A stretch of DNA of 64,000 nt from Rhodoferax sp. GTDB lineage: Bacteria > Pseudomonadota > Gammaproteobacteria > Burkholderiales > Burkholderiaceae_C. The position numbers were made by a program, and so were the translations under genes. Shown piece by piece: positions 13,308 to 38,991 of the stretch. How positions within the stretch are numbered: position 1 is the first letter of the stretch; each line of letters begins with the position of its first letter. The notes under the pieces are model-generated. The model was not told where the DNA came from, ran no database searches, and saw only the letters and a list, made by a program, of their open reading frames with translations. The stretch is taken from the NCBI RefSeq assembly GCF_030646845.1, contig NZ_JAUSLE010000010.1, positions 18,516 to 82,515 of the forward strand, given 5' to 3'.

Positions 13308-13568
13308 TTAGCGGGAATCCGGCAATTCGATCTTGACCTCCAGCACTTCGAGATTGTCCTGGCGCTCCAGGTTCACCTTGATATCTGCCGGGTTGATCTT
13401 GATGTACTTGCTGATCACGGCCACCAGTTCACGCTGCAGGGCCGGCAGGTAATCGGGCTCGGCCGCATTGCGGCCACTACGCTCGTGCGCCAGGATGATT
13501 TGCAGCCGCTCTTTGGCGACGTTGGCAGTTTTCTTTTTTTCACCAACAAAAAAAGAGAGAAATGACAT
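13308..13568 (-). CDS. minE: Cell division topological specificity factor MinE
   Basis: An 86-residue MinE with the MinD-interacting region ([19 protein letters not shown]) and the C-terminal dimerisation domain ([29 protein letters not shown]). MinE drives pole-to-pole oscillation of MinD and confines MinC inhibition to the poles. ATG 13568 gives the family N-terminus MSFLSFF. It starts four bases after minD ends, as the third gene of the minCDE operon. Confidence 0.96.
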
Positions 13569-13572
13569 GGCC

Positions 13573-14388
13573 TTATTTCCCACCGAAGAGTCGTTTCAGA
13601 AGCCCCTGTTTGGGTGCATCGGTAAAGCGCATGGGCTTGTCCTCACCCAAAAAGCGGTCAATCACGTCCTTGTAGGCCTCTGACACGTCGCTGCCCTGCA
13701 TGTGCACCGCCGGCACGCCCTGATTGGAGGCCTGCAGCACCGATTCACTCTCGGGAATGACACCGATGAGCTTGATGCGCAGGATGTCCTGAATATCTTC
13801 CAGCGACAGCATCTGGCCCTGGTTCACCCGCGCCGGGTTGTAGCGGGTAATGAGCAAATGCTCCTTGATCGGGTCCAGCCCTTCAATGGCGCGTTTGGTC
13901 TTGCTGGAGAGCATGCCCAGAATACGGTCCGAATCGCGCACCGAGGACACCTCGGGGTTGGTCACCACCAGCGCTTCGTCGGCAAAGTGCATGGCCATCA
14001 GGGCGCCAGTCTCGATGCCCGCTGGCGAGTCGCACACGATGTACTCAAAATCCATGGCGGCCAGGTCGGTCAACACTTTCTCGACGCCGTCCTGCGACAG
14101 GGCGTCCTTGTCACGCGTTTGCGACGCGGCCAACACGTACAGGTTGTCGCACTGCTTGTCCTTGATCAGAGCCTGGTTAAGGTTGGCTTCACCATGGATG
14201 ACATTGATCAGGTCATACACCACGCGGCGTTCACAACCCATGATCAGGTCCAGGTTGCGCAAACCGACGTCGAAGTCGATCACGGCGGTCTTGTGCCCGC
14301 GCAGGGCCAGACCGGTCGCAAAGCTGGCGCTGGTGGTTGTTTTACCCACACCACCTTTGCCGGAGGTAACCACAATGATTTTTGCCAT
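13573..14388 (-). CDS. minD: Septum site-determining ATPase MinD
   Basis: A 271-residue deviant-Walker ParA/MinD ATPase. The P-loop GKGGVGKTT lies at residues 10-18. The conserved [22 protein letters not shown] is followed by CDSPAGIE, and the C-terminus is an amphipathic membrane-targeting helix ([10 protein letters not shown]). It recruits MinC to the membrane and oscillates under MinE. It lies between minC (26 bases upstream) and minE (4 bases downstream). Confidence 0.97.
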
Positions 14389-14414: not shown

Positions 14415-15203
14415 TTAGGTTTTCAGGGCTTCGATCAGCAGCTTGTCCTGCCCATCGTTGCTCAAACGCACCTGCGCCGGCTTGCCACGCACGTCAGGCT
14501 CCAGCGGGTTCTCGCTGGTGCGGTACACGCCCGCAATGGAAATCAGCTCGGGCTCCAGGCACAGCGAGAAAATGCGCGCGTTGGTGTTGCCACTGGCGCC
14601 GGCCATGGCCTTGCCGCGCAGGGGCGCATACACATGGATGTTGCCGTCTGCCACCACTTCGGCGCCCTGGTTGACCATGGCCAGAACGACCAGATCAGCG
14701 CCGCGGGCGTAGATTTTTTGCCCGGATCGCAGGGGTTTGTCCACCACCATGGTGAGCTGGCCCGGGATTTCACGCACGATCTCCCTGACCACCTCTTGGA
14801 CCACGTATTCGGTCGGCGCCGTGGCCGCAGCCGCCGGTCGAACCCGCGGCGCATCGACCGGCGCTTCAACCAGACCCAGCGCGAGGGCCGATTGCATCCA
14901 GGCCGTACTGGCACCACGCACCGCCAAAGGCACCAGCCGACAGGACCGCAATACCCTCAACAAGGGCTTCAGATCTTGCAGCGGCGTGTCTGGCGCCAGC
15001 TGCGAAAAATCGATCACCAGGGCGTCATGGTCAAAAAAATCCGGGTTCTCGCCGGCAACACCGTATTGCTTTTCCAGATCAGCTGCCAGCAAGTTCCAGT
15101 CATTGGTCTTGAGCATCAACGCGACCAATGGCAATTGGGCACTTTTTATTTCAAAAGAGGCAGACGTGTGGCCAGGCGAATTGCCTGCGGAAGAAACGGA
15201 CAT
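14415..15203 (-). CDS. minC: Septum site-determining protein MinC
   Basis: A 262-residue FtsZ-assembly inhibitor. The N-terminal FtsZ-interacting domain ([20 protein letters not shown]...) is joined by an Ala/Pro linker (about 118-135) to the C-terminal beta-helix ([44 protein letters not shown]), which binds MinD. ATG 15203 gives a normal length. This is the first gene of the operon, and its promoter must lie in the AT-rich region next to the putative replication origin. Confidence 0.95.
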
Positions 15204-15819
15204 TGGGGAATGAAGAAGCAGTAGAGGACGGTTGAGCTGCGGACAAAAAAAGGACAAACGACTGGAAAGAAACACCAGACGCCGGGACTCAGCAGAGGAC
15301 CGATTTTACTTGATTGCGTCAAGCCAAACCAGAACTCTGCCAGCTTCTTTCACAGGTTTTCGTAAGCAAACGTCTGGCCGGCGTGAGCATATTTTTTTGA
15401 TGCGGGTTTGTTTGCACTTATCTTCTTATTTATCTATTTAAAAGATAGTAGTAGTAGATAGAGTGTTGCGATCTTTGTGGACAAGAAGATTTTATTCATA
15501 CCAATCAATAACTTAGCTATGGTCAATCAATGTGCGCGACCATGCTTTTGTACTGTACCCCGAATCTGGATAACTTCACCCGACTTGATTTTCCTGTGGA
15601 TAACTATGATCTTGTGCCGGAACTATTCACAGGGTTGTTCCTTGACAGATTTTAGTGCGTGGGGGCAATGCCAGACATGGGCTGGTGGCGAGTAAAACCG
15701 GCGTTGCGCCAGAAACAGGGGAGTCAGTGCGTCCTGAACGGGGCTGAAGGGCAGTTGATCTGCATCAAGGCGAGTTGACCCGTCGCATGCCATGCTTGCA
15801 GCAAAGAAGGAGATATGCC
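15204..15819. other. Long intergenic region holding a putative replication origin
   Basis: A 616-base gap between the divergent minC and hemerythrin genes. The middle is strikingly AT-rich for this genome and carries the DnaA-box cluster described separately. The edges (15204-15375 and 15660-15819) hold no recognisable gene; they must contain the minC and hemerythrin promoters. Confidence 0.7.
15410..15632. other. oriC: Candidate chromosomal replication origin (oriC)
   Basis: An AT-rich unwinding element at about 15417-15462 includes TTATCTTCTTATTTATCTAT and a run of TAG triplets (TAGTAGTAGTAG) resembling DnaA-trios. DnaA-box-like 9-mers follow: TGTGGACAA (15476), TCTGGATAA (15565), the perfect TGTGGATAA (15595), and CTATTCACA (15623). 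The CTGTGGATAACTATGATC context resembles E. coli R1. parS sites and parAB lie about 20 kb away, as expected near an origin. dnaA itself is not in the window, which is the main reason for caution. Confidence 0.6.
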
Positions 15820-16404
15820 ATGGCCCATGAAAGCATTCGGATTATTCGCGATGAGCATGCTGCGCTGGCGGCGATGTTGCGTTCGCTCGGCATGATGGTC
15901 GAACGTGGCCCGGTCAATGAGCCTGAGGGTTTTTTTGATGTGTTGCGGGCGATGCTGTTCTACATCGACGAGTTTCCGGAACGCCTGCATCACCCAAAAG
16001 AGTCGGAGTTGCTCTTCCCCCGGGTGGCGCGTCTGGCGCCTGAGACCGTGGAAGTCATTGCCCGGCTGGACCATGACCACGCGAAAGGCGAGTCGGCGGT
16101 GCGGGAGTTACAACACCTGTTGCTGGCCTGGGAACTGGTTGGCGATGCCAGGCGTGAGGCGTTTGACCAGGCCGCGAAGAAGTATCTTGATTTCTATCTG
16201 GAGCACATGCGCCTCGAAGAAACCGTGATTTTGCCCGCAGCACAAAAGGTGCTGAATGAGGCGGACTGGAAAGAACTCGACGCTGCCTTTGCCACCAACT
16301 GCGATCCCCTGACCGGCAAATACCCGCGGGACCCGGCCTATGACCGGCTGTTCACCCGCATCGTGATGCGGGCGCCCGCGCCGATTGGCTTGGGCGAGGG
16401 TTAA
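15820..16404 (+). CDS. Hemerythrin-domain protein
   Basis: A 194-residue four-helix-bundle protein with putative diiron ligands spaced along the helices: H-A-A-L near residue 13, HHPKESELLFPRV (about 57-66), LDHDHAKGE (about 86-94) and EHMRLEETVILP (about 128-139). These match the HHE cation-binding pattern. Such proteins bind oxygen or nitric oxide, or repair iron-sulfur clusters. The start follows a near-ideal AAGGAG site. It stands alone, convergent with the old yellow enzyme gene. Confidence 0.85.
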   Translation: MAHESIRIIRDEHAALAAMLRSLGMMVERGPVNEPEGFFDVLRAMLFYIDEFPERLHHPKESELLFPRVARLAPETVEVIARLDHDHAKGESAVRELQHLLLAWELVGDARREAFDQAAKKYLDFYLEHMRLEETVILPAAQKVLNEADWKELDAAFATNCDPLTGKYPRDPAYDRLFTRIVMRAPAPIGLGEG

Positions 16405-32652: not shown

Positions 32653-32663
32653 GTCAAGTTTCA

Positions 32664-32712: not shown

Positions 32713-32948
32713 TGCTTTTTTTGGTATGAAACCATTGGTTCGCCCGCAGCACCGGATTGACAGCATCTGGCACGCACGGGCGGTGAGCTTTGCGCTGCCA
32801 CACGCCGTCGGCGTCGAATGCCTGCAAAGGCCAGAAGCTTCATGCCCCTGATTGTCCCCATATTTGGGAGCAGCCGGTAAAATCGCGTGTTGCCCACCGG
32901 GCGCAGGGCGCGCCTCTTTCTTCCCCGCCCACACTCAGACCCATAGCC

Positions 32949-35006
32949 ATGCTTTATCCACAGAATTTCGACGTCATCGTTGTTGGCGGCGGTCACGCCG
33001 GTACCGAGGCGGCCCTGGCCGCCGCCCGCATGGGCTGCAAGACCCTGCTGCTCAGCCACAACATCGAAACCCTGGGCCAGATGAGCTGCAACCCGTCGAT
33101 TGGCGGCATCGGCAAGGGCCATCTGGTCAAGGAAGTGGACGCCATGGGTGGCGCCATGGCGGCGGCGACCGATGAAAGTGGCATCCAGTTTCGCATTCTC
33201 AATTCCAGCAAGGGGCCGGCCGTGCGCGCCACCCGCGCCCAGGCAGATCGCGTGCTGTACAAGGCGGCCATTCGCCACCGGCTGGAAAACCAGCCCAACC
33301 TCTGGCTGTTCCAGCAGGCGGTGGACGACCTGATGGTGGAGGGCGACCGGGTGGTGGGGGCGGTAACCCAAGTGGGCATCAAGTTTCGCGCCAAGACCGT
33401 GGTGCTGACGGCCGGGACTTTTCTGGATGGCAAGATCCATGTGGGCCTGAACAATTATGCGGCCGGCCGGGCCGGGGACCCGCCAGCGGTTTCCCTGAGT
33501 GCGCGCTTGAAAGAGCTGAAGCTGCCGCAGGGCCGGCTGAAAACCGGCACACCGCCGCGGCTCGATGGCCGCTCGATTGACTTCAGCAAGTGCATTGAGC
33601 AGCCCGGTGACGGCATGCCCGGCGGCATGAGCGCGGCCATGCCGGTGTTCAGCTTCATGGGCCGCGCCGAGCAGCACCCGGCGCAAATGTCATGCTGGAT
33701 GACCCATACCAATGAGCGCACCCACGACATCATCCGCAGCGGCTTTGACCGCAGCCCCATGTTCACCGGCAAGATCGAGGGCGTCGGCCCGCGCTATTGC
33801 CCGAGTGTCGAAGACAAGATCAACCGCTTTGCCGACAAGGACAGCCACCAGATTTTTCTGGAACCCGAAGGCCTGACGACGAACGAGTATTACCCGAACG
33901 GCATCAGCACCAGTCTGCCCTTTGACATTCAGTACGAACTCGTGCGCTCGATGGCCGGCCTGGAGAACGCCCACATCCTGCGCCCGGGCTACGCCATTGA
34001 GTACGACTACTTCGATCCGCAGCAGCTCAAAAGCAGTTTCGAGACGCGGGCCATTGGCGGCCTGTTCTTTGCTGGCCAGATCAATGGCACGACCGGCTAC
34101 GAAGAGGCCGCTGCCCAGGGCATGTTCGCCGGTATCAATGCCGCGTTGCAGGCCGGTGCCAAAACCGCGTGGCAGCAGGACACCTGGGTGCCGGGTCGGG
34201 ACGAGGCCTACCTGGGTGTGCTGGTGGATGACCTTATTACCAAGGGCGTGACCGAGCCCTACCGCATGTTCACCAGCCGCGCCGAGTACCGCCTGCAACT
34301 GCGCGAAGACAACGCCGACGTGCGTTTGACCGAAGTAGGGCGGCAGCTGGGTTTGGTGGATGATGCCCGTTGGGATGCTTTCAGCCGCAAACGCGATGCT
34401 GTTTCACGTGAAACAGAGCGGCTTAAATCAATCTGGATCAGCCCTAAAAATGTGTCTGCACCAGAAGCTGAGCGTGTTTTTGGCAAGGCCTTGGAGCATG
34501 AGTACAACCTGCTCGAATTGTTGCGCCGCCCCGATGTGGACTACGCGGCGCTGATGAGTCTGGAGTCGGCCAAGTTTGCGAACCCTGTTGTTATTGCCCT
34601 TGTCCCGATGGATGTTTCACGTGAAACATCAGTTGATTCGAGCGCTTTGTTTCAAACCGAACAAGCCAGAGCGGTGATTGAGCAGATCGAAATCGTCGCT
34701 AAATACTCCGGCTACATTGACCGTCAACACGCGGAAGTGGAGCGGGCGCTGCACTTTGAAAGCTTCAAATTGCCGCCGGATATGGACTACGCCCAGGTGA
34801 CCGCACTCAGCATCGAGGCGCGCCAGACCCTCGCCAAACACAAGCCGCAGACGCTGGGTTTGGCGTCGCGCATCTCGGGCGTCACGCCTGCGACGGTGTC
34901 TTTGCTCTTGGTCTACCTGAAAAAGAATGGCTATAAAGGGTTTTCTGGCAAGGGAGTAGAGGTCGAAGCTTTGGTGGCTGTCGCTATAGAGGTGGCGGCA
35001 GAATGA
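32949..35006 (+). CDS. mnmG: tRNA uridine-5-carboxymethylaminomethyl modification enzyme MnmG (GidA)
   Basis: A 685-residue FAD enzyme that with MnmE modifies the wobble uridine of certain tRNAs. The FAD motif is [21 protein letters not shown], followed by [18 protein letters not shown] and the [16 protein letters not shown] region. It is longer than E. coli MnmG (629). Part of the excess is an insertion after [17 protein letters not shown] that is encoded around a parS site. Two perfect parS sites lie in the gene, each read as V-S-R-E-T. Its stop overlaps the rsmG start (ATGA). Confidence 0.97.
34400..34415. promoter_or_regulatory. parS: parS centromere site 1 (perfect)
   Basis: TGTTTCACGTGAAACA is an exact match to the conserved 16-bp ParB-binding palindrome. 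It lies inside mnmG, where the frame reads it as V-S-R-E-T within a segment otherwise alignable to other MnmG proteins. Confidence 0.97.
34613..34628. promoter_or_regulatory. parS: parS centromere site 2 (perfect)
   Basis: A second exact TGTTTCACGTGAAACA, 213 bases from the first. It is again read as V-S-R-E-T, within what looks like an extra loop of MnmG. Confidence 0.97.
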
Positions 35007-35686
35007 CGCAATCAGTGACAGGAGTGATCTCATCCAATCCGTATGAGTCAACGTTAAGGCAGGGCGCCAACGCGCTGGGTTTGAGTCTCAACGACCGCCA
35101 AATCGCCCAGCTCTTGGGCTACCATGCCCTGATTCAAAAGTGGAACAAGGTCTACAACCTGACGGCGGTACGCGACCCGGCGGAGATGTTGACGCATCAT
35201 TTGCTGGACAGCTTGGCGATTGTTACTCCGCTCATTCGTCAAACGGCTGGTGCGTCCATCAATATGCTTGATGTGGGGGCAGGGGCCGGCCTGCCCGGCG
35301 TGGTGGTGGCGATCTGCTGCCCACAGGTGTCGGTCACCTGTGTCGATGCCGTGGCCAAGAAGATGGCGTTTGTGCAGCAGGTGGCGACCGAGTTGAAATT
35401 GCCGAATCTCAAGGCACTGCATTCCCGCGTCGAGGTATTGACGCAGAAGTTTGATCTGATCACGTCACGGGCCTTTGCGACGCTGGCGGATTTTGTGACC
35501 GGATCGCGGGCGGCGTTGAAGCCTGGTACGGGCGTGTGGCTGGCGATGAAGGGCAGGGATACGTCGGCTGAAGTGGCTGCTTTGCCGGCTGATGTGACCG
35601 TGTTTCACGTGGAACAATTGACGGTTCCAGGCTTGGATGCGGAGCGGCGCATCGTTTGGATGAAGATGGCTATATCTGCCGGATAA
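35003..35686 (+). CDS. rsmG: 16S rRNA (guanine-527-N7)-methyltransferase RsmG (GidB)
   Basis: A 227-residue class I methyltransferase. The SAM-binding loop [16 protein letters not shown] is followed by [19 protein letters not shown], and [10 protein letters not shown] and the [21 protein letters not shown] region are both RsmG-specific. It methylates G527 of 16S rRNA. The start overlaps the mnmG stop. A near-perfect parS site lies near its 3' end. Confidence 0.96.
35601..35616. promoter_or_regulatory. parS: parS-like site 3 (one mismatch)
   Basis: TGTTTCACGTGGAACA differs from the parS consensus at one base. It lies inside rsmG in a different reading phase from the mnmG sites (F-H-V-E-Q). 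Confidence 0.85.
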
Positions 35687-35776
35687 ATCAGAACCTGGCG
35701 CAATAAAGCTACTTTCTGCCTGCCGAATGTCGCGTAAACTCAACCCTTACGATTTACGTGCGGGAGTTACGCAAAA

Positions 35777-36403
35777 ATGTTTGGAAATGTGTTCGGTATC
35801 GCAGATTACAGCGCCTTCATCATCGCCATCATCATTTTTTTGGCCATTCCCGGCCCGGGCAATCTGGCCCTGATCACCTCGACCAGCAAGGGCGGGATCC
35901 TCGGTGGTTTGGCTGCCACACTGGGTGTCATCGCCGGTGACCAGGTGCTGATGTGGCTGGCGGTTGCTGGTGTGGCGGCCTTGCTCAGCGCCTATCCGAC
36001 GGCTTTCAATGCGGTGCAGTGGTTGGGCGCGGCCTATCTGGCCTGGCTGGGCTTCAAGCTGCTGACCGTCAAACCCGGTGACAAGCCGGTGCTCAACATC
36101 CAGCCGCGTCACTATTTCAAGCAAGCCATGATGATCACCTTGCTCAACCCCAAGGCGATTGTGTTTTACATGGCTTTCTTCCCGCTGTTTGTCGATCCGG
36201 TCAAGCAACAAGGCTTGCTGACATATGCGGTCATGGCGGCGACGATTGCCGCACTGACCTTTGCCTATGGTCTGACGGCGACCTTGATTTCACACTTCAT
36301 GGCCGAGCGCATTCGCGCCAACCCGCGAGCTACCAGCGTGCTGCACAAGTTGGCGGGTATCTTTCTCATCGGCTTTGGCGTTAAATTGGCCCTCTCTAAA
36401 TGA
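35777..36403 (+). CDS. LysE-family amino-acid/metabolite exporter
   Basis: A 208-residue inner-membrane protein with about six helices and the LysE/RhtB signature near the N-terminus (FIIAIIIFLAIPGPGNLALITSTSKGG). The central helix contains GAAYLAWLGFKLL, and MITLLNPKAIVFYMAFFPLFV is also conserved. Members export amino acids or related metabolites; the substrate is not readable. GGAG precedes the ATG. It lies between rsmG and parA, a position that varies between genomes. Confidence 0.9.
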   Translation: MFGNVFGIADYSAFIIAIIIFLAIPGPGNLALITSTSKGGILGGLAATLGVIAGDQVLMWLAVAGVAALLSAYPTAFNAVQWLGAAYLAWLGFKLLTVKPGDKPVLNIQPRHYFKQAMMITLLNPKAIVFYMAFFPLFVDPVKQQGLLTYAVMAATIAALTFAYGLTATLISHFMAERIRANPRATSVLHKLAGIFLIGFGVKLALSK

Positions 36404-36439
36404 ATATAAAACATAAATATACGCACGAAATACAATTTT

Positions 36440-36512
36440 CCGACGGGCCGCCCCTAGGGAAATTAGTCCCCTTGGGGGGCAGCGCAGTACGCGAAGCGAC
36501 AAGCGTGGGGGT
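36440..36512 (+). repeat. GC-rich intergenic repeat-like element upstream of parA
   Basis: CGACGGGCCGCCCCTAGGG, then AAATTAGTCCCCTTGGGG and CGCGAAGCGACAAGCGTGGGGG. Similar CCCCTTGGGG plus GCGAAGCG strings are familiar from Comamonadaceae intergenic regions (my recollection). The last GGGGG lies nine bases before the parA ATG and could serve as its ribosome site. No second copy was seen in this window. Confidence 0.5.
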
Positions 36513-36521
36513 ACATTTCTA

Positions 36522-37307
36522 ATGGCCAAAATCTTCTGTGTCGCCAATCAAAAAGGTGGCGTCGGCAAAACCACCACCACGGTCAATCTGGCGGCGGGCT
36601 TGGCCAAAATCGGCCAGCGGGTGCTGATGATTGACCTCGACCCGCAGGGCAACGCCACCATGGGTTCGGGTGTCGACAAGCGCCAGCTGGAGCTGACGAT
36701 CTATGACGTGCTGCTGGAGAACGCCACGATCACCGAGGCGCGCGTGAAAAGTGACAAGCTCATCACCGCCGGCTGCAGCTACGACGTGCTGGGCGCCAAC
36801 CGCGAACTGGCAGGCGCCGAGGTGGAATTGGTCGATGTTGAGCGCCGCGAACGCCGCATCAAAACGGCCATAGCTGCCGTTGAAAGCGAGTACGACTTTG
36901 TCTTGATCGACTGTCCGCCCAGCCTGTCCATGCTCACCCTCAATGGCCTGTGCTGCGCCAACGGCGTGATTGTGCCCATGCAGTGCGAGTATTTTGCGCT
37001 GGAGGGCCTCACTGATCTGGTCAACACCATCAAGCAGGTCCACGCCAATTTGAATCCGGACTTGCAAATCATCGGCCTGCTGCGCGTCATGTTCGACCCC
37101 CGCATCACCTTGCAGCAACAGGTCAGCGAGCAGCTCAAAAACCATTTTGGCAACAAAGTCTTCAACACCGTCATCCCGCGCAACGTGCGCCTGGCCGAAG
37201 CGCCCAGCTACGGCCTGCCCGGCGTGGTGTTTGACCCGTCCGCGCGCGGCAGCATCGCCTTTGTCGAGTTTGCCAACGAGATGGTGGAACGCATCAAAAC
37301 CATGTAA
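36522..37307 (+). CDS. parA: Chromosome-partitioning ATPase ParA (Soj)
   Basis: A 261-residue deviant-Walker ATPase. The P-loop [18 protein letters not shown] lies at residues 11-28. DLDPQGNATMGSGVDK follows, then DCPPSLSMLTLN and the FDPRITLQQQVSEQLKNHFG region. It forms ATP-dependent gradients on the nucleoid that pull ParB-parS complexes. It lies downstream of mnmG-rsmG, as is usual, but a LysE gene and a repeat intervene. Confidence 0.97.
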   Translation: MAKIFCVANQKGGVGKTTTTVNLAAGLAKIGQRVLMIDLDPQGNATMGSGVDKRQLELTIYDVLLENATITEARVKSDKLITAGCSYDVLGANRELAGAEVELVDVERRERRIKTAIAAVESEYDFVLIDCPPSLSMLTLNGLCCANGVIVPMQCEYFALEGLTDLVNTIKQVHANLNPDLQIIGLLRVMFDPRITLQQQVSEQLKNHFGNKVFNTVIPRNVRLAEAPSYGLPGVVFDPSARGSIAFVEFANEMVERIKTM

Positions 37308-37343
37308 ACGGGGTGGAAACACGCCAAACCATGAATTTAAGTG

Positions 37344-37404
37344 CCAAATTGACCTCTAGCCGGCGTATTTATTGCCTAAACAGCTATTAAATATATAGCA
37401 ATTT
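37344..37404 (-). repeat. Dispersed intergenic hairpin repeat, copy 5
   Basis: CCTCTAGCCGGCGTATTTAT, then TGCCTAAACAGCTATTAAATATATAGCA on the plus strand. Read on the minus strand it is the hairpin followed by AATAAATACGCCGGCTAGAG, matching copies at 54050, 57000 and 59306. It lies between parA and the hydrolase gene. Confidence 0.75.
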
Positions 37405-37435
37405 AAATCCATATAGCCTTGACCGTCTCATTGTA

Positions 37436-37996
37436 ATGATGCAAACGCCACTCGTTTTCACCCTCCCAGGCTGGCAAGGCAGCGGTGCCGCGCATTGGCA
37501 AAGCCATTGGGAAGCCGCATTTGGCGACGTTCGCGTAGAGCAGCACGACTGGCAGCAGCCCCTGCGCGGCGACTGGATCACGCGGCTGGAAGACGCCGTG
37601 CAAGAGCACCTGAAACAGCATCCGACGCAGCCCGTCGTGTTCGCTGCGCACAGCCTCGGTTGCCATCTGGTTGCCGCGTGGGCGGCTTTGTCCCCCAACG
37701 TGCAGCACGTCGCTGGTGCACTGCTGGTGGCGCCGCCCGACCCGCTGCAGCCCCATTTTCCGCCGCAGTTGCACAGCTGGAGCAAACCGGTGTTGAACAA
37801 GTTGCCGTTCAAAACCACGCTGGCCGCCTCCACCAACGACCCTTTTTGCCACTTCCATATCGCCACGGGCTTGGCAGGACATTGGGGCAGCGAGCTTGTC
37901 AGCGTCGGCGAACGCGGTCACATCAACGCCGAATCGGGACTGGGCGACTGGCCCGCGGGGCGAGCCATGCTGATGCAACTGGCTCAATCGGCCTGA
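37436..37996 (+). CDS. RBBP9/YdeN-family alpha/beta hydrolase
   Basis: A 186-residue small serine hydrolase. The opening FTLPGWQGSGAAHWQSHWE is typical of the RBBP9/YdeN group. The nucleophile elbow is AHSLGCHLVAAW, the acid lies in STNDPFC, and the final histidine in GERGHINAESGLGDWPAG. The substrate is unknown. It interrupts the parA-parB pair, which usually adjoin; it has only 65 bases before parB, so it may be co-transcribed with it. Confidence 0.88.
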   Translation: MMQTPLVFTLPGWQGSGAAHWQSHWEAAFGDVRVEQHDWQQPLRGDWITRLEDAVQEHLKQHPTQPVVFAAHSLGCHLVAAWAALSPNVQHVAGALLVAPPDPLQPHFPPQLHSWSKPVLNKLPFKTTLAASTNDPFCHFHIATGLAGHWGSELVSVGERGHINAESGLGDWPAGRAMLMQLAQSA

Positions 37997-38061
37997 ACGC
38001 GACCCGTGCTTTATTGCTTATTTATTTATTTATAAAACCTAAAAAATCAACGGAAAACAAC

Positions 38062-38991
38062 ATGGCAACCAAACGACCCAAAGGCCTAGGACGCGGCCTG
38101 GAAGCACTGCTCGGCCCCACATTTGACGAAAATGCCGCCACGAACAGCGGAGTTCTCGCCAACACGGGCACGCCGTCCAGCTTGCTGTTGACTGATCTGG
38201 TCGCCGGCCAGTACCAGCCGCGCACCCGCATGGACGAGGGCGCTTTGTACGAGCTGGCCGAGTCCATCAAGGCGCAGGGCATCATGCAGCCGATCCTGGT
38301 GCGTCGCCTGACCAGCGGTGCGAATGACGGCAAATACGAGATCATCGCCGGCGAGCGCCGCTTCCGCGCCGCCAAAATCGCCGGACTGGACCACGTGCCG
38401 GTGCTGGTGCGCGACGTGCCTGACGAGGCCGCCGCCGCCATGTCGCTGATTGAAAACATCCAGCGCGAAGACCTCAACCCACTGGAAGAAGCCCAGGGTT
38501 TACAACGCCTGGTGCGAGAGTTTGCGCTCACTCACGAACAAGCCGCGCAGGCCGTGGGCCGCTCCCGCAGTGCTGCCAGCAACCTGCTCCGGCTCCTGAA
38601 TCTGGCCGACCCGGTGCAAACCATGCTGATGGCCGGCGACCTTGACATGGGCCACGCCCGCGCCCTGTTGTCGCTCGACCGCGCCACCCAGATCACGGCA
38701 GCCAGCCAGATCAGCGCCAGGAAAATGTCGGTCCGCGAGGCCGAGAGCCTGGTCAAAAAGCTCAGCGCCGAGTTCAACCTGGTGGCCACCAAGCCCAAAA
38801 AAGAGAAATCCCGCGACCTCAAACGCGTGGAAGAAGAGCTCTCCGACCTGCTCACCGCGCAGGTCGAGATCCGCGTCAAAAAGCGCGTGAAACGCCACGG
38901 CAAGTTTGAGGAGATGGGCGAGCTGGCGATCCAGTTTGGCTCGATGGAAGAGTTGAACGGGTTGATCGACCGGCTGCGGGGCGAGGCGTGA
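38062..38991 (+). CDS. parB: Chromosome-partitioning protein ParB (Spo0J)
   Basis: A 309-residue CTPase-type ParB. The N-terminal ParA-stimulating peptide is RPKGLGRGLEALLG. The conserved box I/II parts are QYQPRTRMDE and GERRFRAAKIAG, with ENIQREDLNPLEEAQG, and the helix-turn-helix is LTHEQAAQAVGRSRSAASNLLRLL. The C-terminal dimerisation region is basic and helical. It binds the parS sites in mnmG and rsmG and spreads along DNA as a clamp. Confidence 0.97.
   Translation: MATKRPKGLGRGLEALLGPTFDENAATNSGVLANTGTPSSLLLTDLVAGQYQPRTRMDEGALYELAESIKAQGIMQPILVRRLTSGANDGKYEIIAGERRFRAAKIAGLDHVPVLVRDVPDEAAAAMSLIENIQREDLNPLEEAQGLQRLVREFALTHEQAAQAVGRSRSAASNLLRLLNLADPVQTMLMAGDLDMGHARALLSLDRATQITAASQISARKMSVREAESLVKKLSAEFNLVATKPKKEKSRDLKRVEEELSDLLTAQVEIRVKKRVKRHGKFEEMGELAIQFGSMEELNGLIDRLRGEA

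Follow-up and report, generated by a model that had tools for sequence, protein, structure and literature searches.

Bacterial chromosomes are held to have one origin of replication, usually beside dnaA. In Escherichia coli, the single copy of oriC lies away from dnaA, as does the element described here. Cupriavidus and Ralstonia are both members of the Burkholderiales, and each includes a genome with an unusual predicted origin. On chromosome 1 of Cupriavidus metallidurans CH34, the excerpt of PMC2864759 used here places a skew transition approximately 90 kb from dnaA, by three perfect DnaA boxes, while Ralstonia pickettii 12D has two putative origins 291 kb apart in a report that considers bacteria with such double origins to be very few (PMC4403523). 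The same report describes two autonomously replicating origin fragments in Pseudomonas aeruginosa, only one of which is essential in laboratory growth. That the origin is not always near dnaA is also stated in the excerpted text of PMC10225481. At the level of individual motifs, IHF has a positive action at E. coli oriC (PMC4285127, in excerpt), and a basal unwinding system has been described in which a DnaA box lies beside a repeat of the trinucleotide 3'-GAT-5', with a search rule that allows a box-trio spacer of up to 16 bases and a peak at 10-13 (PMC8287927, in excerpt). Displaced origins in Cupriavidus and double ones in Ralstonia have therefore been predicted before, as single-genome predictions from skew and boxes, without a shared element model, and they are compared here by description. 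Among the papers listed by a literature search that included few subscription papers, with DoriC outside its scope, no earlier report was found of family-wide displacement and multiplicity, or of Comamonadaceae origins beside minC or in multiple copies.

The stretch of DNA analysed, 64,000 nucleotides in full and referred to below as the window, contains an element at 15426-15636 that is very probably the chromosomal oriC of a Rhodoferax-like Comamonadaceae genome, predicted from sequence to have relocated from dnaA-dnaN to the side of minC. We infer both that replication fires at 15426-15636 and that the direction of the move was from dnaA-dnaN to minC. The features of the locus, with the nearest genes and the more distant parS sites, are as follows:

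13308..13568, reverse strand: minE (Pfam PF03776)
13573..14388, reverse strand: minD (Pfam CbiA/ParA-type ATPase, between minC and minE)
14415..15203, reverse strand: minC, neighbour on the trio side (Pfam PF03775 and PF05209)
15391..15450, forward strand: AT-rich stretch on the minC side, predicted duplex-unwinding element (25% GC across 60 bases)
15426..15636, forward strand: predicted oriC core element (whole match to model R1, of which the window is one of the 20 rows; 133.5 bits, E 2e-40, filters off)
15446..15457, forward strand: four TAG repeats, predicted DnaA-trios (the sole run of at least three TAG in the window; conserved in alignment A1)
15476..15484, reverse strand: DnaA box 1, with one mismatch, 30 bases along from where the TAG run starts
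15503..15515, forward strand: predicted site for IHF, 27 bases past the start of box 1 (matches WATCAANNNNTTR perfectly)
15565..15573, reverse strand: DnaA box with one mismatch to the strict TTATCCACA
15595..15603, reverse strand: perfect DnaA box (TTATCCACA), 119 bases from box 1
15623..15631, forward strand: inverted weaker DnaA box, two mismatches to the strict TTATCCACA, closing the element
15820..16404, forward strand: hemerythrin gene, neighbour on the box side (Pfam PF01814)
34400-34415 and 34613-34628, forward strand: two perfect parS sites (motif search)
35601-35616: parS site with one mismatch (motif search)

The AT-rich element, the TAG run, the perfect box and the neighbouring genes reported in an initial annotation of this DNA are all present where it had located them, with MinC, MinE and hemerythrin recognised by Pfam and MinD, as a MinD/ParA-type ATPase, between the first two. 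Its count of three one-mismatch boxes becomes two by the strict 9-mer TTATCCACA and four by the looser TTWTNCACA; a further box with two mismatches to the strict form lies at 15492-15500. The region 15381-15660 is the densest cluster in the window of DnaA boxes with at most one mismatch, and three or more such boxes in this region occurred in 0 of 2000 dinucleotide shuffles (mean 0.086). The looser pattern over the whole window gave 57 matches against 50.9 expected, showing no excess over chance. The lowest GC content of any 250-base stretch in the window is likewise found here, at 15407-15656 (0.368 versus 0.621 for the whole window). The IHF site, which the initial annotation had not noted, was assigned by its match to WATCAANNNNTTR, which we take to be the IHF consensus. 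The runner-up to the R1 match in the window scores 6.7 bits only, and Rfam models at their gathering scores had no match anywhere in the window.

The element is shared widely among related genomes. A nucleotide search recovered it in 16 of 60 relatives, while R1, a sequence-only model from the 20 aligned copies of alignment A1, identified it in 33 of 36 genomes of the same genus, with no match in the other three. When R1 was applied to 24 genomes of other families, six matched (G038, G048, G052, G042, G039 and G056), the matches being full in G038, G048 and G052 and partial in G039 and G056. An exact-pattern scan of named genomes, which selects copies with trios and both boxes, found at least 118 stretches; among the matches listed, nearly all titles are Comamonadaceae or Burkholderiales, with some odd labels on metagenome bins, and the genera include Rhodoferax, Limnohabitans, Ramlibacter, Hydrogenophaga, Malikia, Giesbergeria, Polaromonas and others. 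The pattern also matches between dnaA and dnaN of an Oscillospiraceae bin (L210:835-988), far outside the proteobacteria.

A second model, R2, was built from 103 elements at 98 loci, comprising 79 named loci of the pattern scan and 19 further loci that include other-family elements (one from G038 and two from G042); the Oscillospiraceae locus L210 was excluded. At E values up to 1e-5, R2 identifies the element in 380 of 397 family genomes, representing 125 of 126 genera, and has no match in the remaining 17 genomes. As a null, 84 stretches (1.68 Mb) from three genomes were searched, giving five matches of 55-128 bits that were all already-known elements and, beyond these, no score above 12.8 bits. 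Of the 103 elements, 102 have two TAG trios, 94 a first box with at most one mismatch and 102 a distal box of the same quality; the first-to-distal distance is 118-119 bases in 81, and 89 end in an inverted box that has no more than two mismatches, although the trio and box counts are partly built in because 79 of the 98 loci were chosen by a pattern demanding trios and boxes. The IHF count is not built in because the scan pattern did not require IHF; the consensus, with at most one mismatch, is found at the same 27-base offset after box 1 in 73 of 103 elements, and anywhere in the element in 18% of shuffles.

R2 also matches the oriC of E. coli K-12 (30.9 bits, E 2.4e-10 in 2 kb), covering 191 of the 232 annotated bases (NC_000913.3, 3925744-3925975) from 41 bases inside the annotated origin to 15 bases beyond it. 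Four of the five E. coli boxes align to the model, such that the TGTGGATAA first box, the ATCAA region, a weak box, the distal TGGATAACT and the closing inverted TTATCCACA all have counterparts in R2, while the fifth box (TTATACACA) lies at an insertion relative to it. The model column of window box 1 aligns with the first E. coli box, which we take to be the box called R1, and that of the closing inverted box with the last, presumably R4. The two differ in that the ATCAA region of E. coli is more than one mismatch from the IHF consensus used here, and in their neighbours, which are mnmG and mioC in E. coli as opposed to minC in the window. Four features of an E. coli-type oriC, namely a box cluster, an AT-rich stretch by box 1, an IHF site between the first and distal boxes and a match to a proven origin, are found, and by this sequence comparison the element is very probably an E. 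coli-type origin. Sites of the datA and DARS type contain DnaA boxes and an IHF site as well, and the position of the element upstream of minC would suit a DnaA-titrating or reloading site of that kind, or a DnaA-responsive control region of minC, with the true origin elsewhere. We regard this as very improbable, given that the model matches E. coli oriC itself and that the AT-rich tract and the TAG trios by box 1 are kept across the 20 aligned copies.

Similar to the basal unwinding system, as far as the excerpt of PMC8287927 describes it, the window has a box beside a 3'-GAT-5' repeat; however, the spacer between the end of the TAG run (15457) and the start of box 1 (15476) is 18 bases, beyond the 16 of that search rule. 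By the rule as excerpted the element is not a member of this system, yet it may work alike. By analogy with E. coli and with the trio studies (PMC8287927, in excerpt), DnaA would bind the perfect and near-perfect boxes of the element, and IHF would introduce a bend into the DNA that links box 1 to the distal boxes, as it does at E. coli oriC. Starting at box 1, DnaA would next form a filament over the TAG trios, and this would open the AT-rich stretch at 15391..15450 on the minC side, where the helicase would load and two forks would start.

The draft genome from which the window derives (G000, estimated contamination 6.5%) carries a single copy of the element when the whole draft is searched with R1 at E values up to 0.001. 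The 20 kb around its dnaA had no R1 match at E values up to 0.01, and the gap between dnaA and dnaN is approximately 100 bases. The window copy, beside minC, differs in place from copies of the same element that lie between dnaA and dnaN. The dnaA promoter of G000 (L073:7873-7930) contains two inverted DnaA boxes 49 bases apart, and a like pair is found just before dnaA at L079, L083 and L086, with spacings of 49-51 bases over the four genus members in all; these paired boxes have a probable role in dnaA autoregulation. An origin still at dnaA in G000, with the minC element as an extra or retired copy, could call on this box pair and on the relative G010, which has copies both upstream of dnaA and at minC and a skew minimum at dnaA. 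This reading is less probable still than a titration or control site, and we give it scarcely any weight, as the lone copy in the draft, the blank around dnaA and the short dnaA-dnaN gap all oppose it, and the box pair, which has no trios, is equally what autoregulation of dnaA requires.

The preferred reading, an oriC that has left dnaA, is informed by where the element lies in other genomes. In G038, G048 and G052, all of other families, it fills the dnaA-dnaN gap, and therefore the likely ancestral place is between dnaA and dnaN; this probable assignment rests on three genomes because other-family matches are few, with the two of G042 at 48 kb from dnaA and those of G039 and G056 partial. 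That other lineages carry this element in the dnaA-dnaN gap is also at odds with a titration or control site. Placement was surveyed in 40 of the 46 single-contig family genomes (G319, G323, G331, G363, G417 and G429 were left out), all 40 of which carry the element. A copy lies within 2.5 kb of dnaA in 13, while in the other 27 every copy is approximately 17-300 kb away, the distance for G292 (about 230 kb) being based on a rounded genome length. The 13 include six in which the element is shown between dnaA and dnaN (G132, G289, G148, G307, G216 and G214, that of G289 adjoining dnaN at the record end), six more with the same distance behind dnaA, in which dnaN was not located, and G010, in which it is upstream of dnaA. 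The initial annotation had described Burkholderiales origins as usually next to dnaA-dnaN, which agrees with the three other-family genomes and these 13, but within the family a position away from dnaA is the commoner state. A DnaA tree built for 30 of these genomes, unrooted and weakly resolved, requires 6 changes of the near or away state versus 10.1 for shuffled labels, and at least three of the changes are forced by well supported branches. If the copies are active, methods that equate the origin with dnaA would be off by tens to hundreds of kilobases across much of the Comamonadaceae, which would affect growth-rate estimates from read depth.

The adjacency to minCDE, from which a link between origin and division-site genes had been proposed, does not extend through the family. 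Within the genus, the element adjoins minC in 12 of the 15 genomes with MinC located; the element and MinC are on separate contigs in G006 and G018, and a MinC fragment lies 1.3 kb from the element in G002. Among the complete family genomes, however, it is beside minC in just 5 of 40 (MinC was located in 37), a count that also argues against a control region for minC. Of 83 elements among the exact-pattern matches listed, 28 are no more than 1.5 kb from minC and 16 lie between dnaA and dnaN, one of the latter being the Oscillospiraceae record; these counts are not frequencies. A special tie between the origin and minCDE was thus rejected, as in the family survey minC is one neighbour among several.

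Strand composition was examined through a GC-skew step test at those 61 of the 79 named loci whose flanks each reach 1 kb or more. Of 48 elements that do not adjoin dnaA, 38 have greater skew to their right than to their left (mean step 0.036, sign p 3e-5, with this and the following p values optimistic because the tested loci are related), and the same holds for 12 of 13 dnaA-dnaN elements, while random control points have a positive step in 135 of 260 (mean 0.003). Flanks of 3-10 kb were available for 17 places from 15 genomes, of which 13 have a positive step (mean 0.041) versus 45 of 74 controls (mean 0.0125). Separated by gene setting, the step is positive at 10 of 11 elements between divergent genes (p 0.0014 against layout-matched controls), at 28 of 38 between co-directional genes (p 0.00014, likewise) and at 10 of 12 between convergent genes, a setting without a matched control. 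Such a step above controls would not be expected of a titration or control site.

Individual genomes give a more varied picture. In G010, 16 of 21 skew samples from one half of the chromosome are positive and 19 of 21 from the other half are negative, with sign changes near position 0 and near 2.47 Mb; the local skew minimum (+416) is 0.6 kb from the dnaA-side copy, and the minC-side copy has no positive step at 10 kb. In G267, skew over 650-690 kb reaches its lowest point 2.3 kb away from the minC-side element, though wide samples are weak, and dnaA, 300 kb off, is inside a positive-skew stretch. Skew samples from G124 and G392, in which the elements are far from dnaA, are noisy and place no origin. 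For the window's own genome, a GC-skew minimum at about 15.5 kb had been proposed as a test, and cumulative skew of the 82.5-kb contig has no clean minimum at the element, an outcome that would also fit a titration or control site. Skew on this contig is mildly positive to the left of the element too, though clearly more so to the right (right flank 0.101 versus left 0.015), and all eight of its 10-kb pieces are called positive by a k-mer classifier of strand that had been trained on G010, with 19 of 21 left-out samples correct. Counts of KOPS and Chi motifs were too few or too mixed for origin placement. The initial proposal of a candidate origin away from dnaA is nonetheless supported by the spread of the element through the family, the match to E. 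coli oriC and the single own copy with none near dnaA, and is further backed by the strand step in related loci and the skew switch at the two-copy region of G010.

Copy number is a further respect in which these genomes depart from the view of one origin beside dnaA. The 40 complete family genomes carry one copy in 18 cases, two in 18 and three in 4; together with the six left-out genomes, which have a single match each, two or three copies are present in 22 of 46. In the wider sample, at least two copies are found in 124 of 397 family genomes, a count read by hand from the R2 result table under stricter search filters. The copies of one complete genome are all within 30 kb, and in 9 of the 22 multi-copy genomes they are less than 1 kb apart. 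These are near full-length elements, as 64 of 66 copies cover 190 or more of the 210 positions in the model and the remaining two cover 187 and 179. P. aeruginosa also has two origin-like elements per chromosome, but here two or three near full-length predicted copies recur across many genera.

Within the genus, two copies each are found in G004, G010, G014 and G032. The pairs are 75% identical in G010, 71% in G032 and 76% in G004, and each of these copies has its partner as its closest or equal-closest relative; in G014 the two, carried by separate small contigs from a bin with 6% contamination, are only 60% identical. In G010, one copy is 220 bases before dnaA and the other beside minC, 15 kb apart, and Limnohabitans sp. 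2KL-1 has two facing copies approximately 5 kb apart, one of them beside minC, whereas the copies of Rhodoferax sp. U11-2br are in tandem. Genes identified by eye between gyrB and the minC-side copy of G010 (L075:5714-13504) are those of a recombinase-transposase pair and of an imuA-imuB-dnaE2-like cassette, so mobile DNA lies between its two origin copies. At L198 and L237, facing origin copies approximately 5 kb apart enclose a copper-ATPase-like gene. Displacement and doubling also extend beyond one family: the single contig of G042, which belongs to another family, carries two copies approximately 400 bases apart at 48 kb from dnaA (L157:3116-3712).

The multi-copy genomes make plausible a relocation by duplication and later loss, in which a second copy would arise nearby and the old copy would subsequently be lost, so that no cell would ever be without an origin. 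The two- and three-copy relatives, including the one with dnaA-upstream and minC copies, look like intermediates of such a process. A bolder proposal, which we put forward tentatively and consider rather doubtful, is that Comamonadaceae naturally run two to three complete active oriC copies within approximately 30 kb, and that the origin walks, repeatedly leaving dnaA through duplication and loss, with minC as a favoured stop. If the copies are active, they would offer natural material for asking whether a single bacterial chromosome can be served by several origins, and would capture stages in the relocation of an essential element.

Elsewhere in the window, the parS sites that had been reported about 20 kb away were confirmed, the three listed above lying approximately 19-20 kb from the element, which favours the origin reading. 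With up to three mismatches to the parS motif allowed, these are the three window matches, versus 0.2 expected. A row of genes at 32790-38991 comprises mnmG, rsmG, a LysE-like gene, parA and parB (named by eye from translations), with the parS sites inside mnmG and rsmG and the cluster 17-23 kb from the element; this is an origin-region gene cluster separated here from both dnaA and oriC. A perfect DnaA box at 32954-32962 falls in the first mnmG codons (MLYPQ) and is probably a coding coincidence. An origin relic near mnmG, suggested by this box and the 6.7-bit match at 32661, was rejected because that match is at chance level (E 0.3) and the box is within mnmG codons. Near a contig end of the same draft, a 269-aa open frame with a DnaA-type ATPase domain (L002; G000:C78:278-583) possibly encodes Hda.
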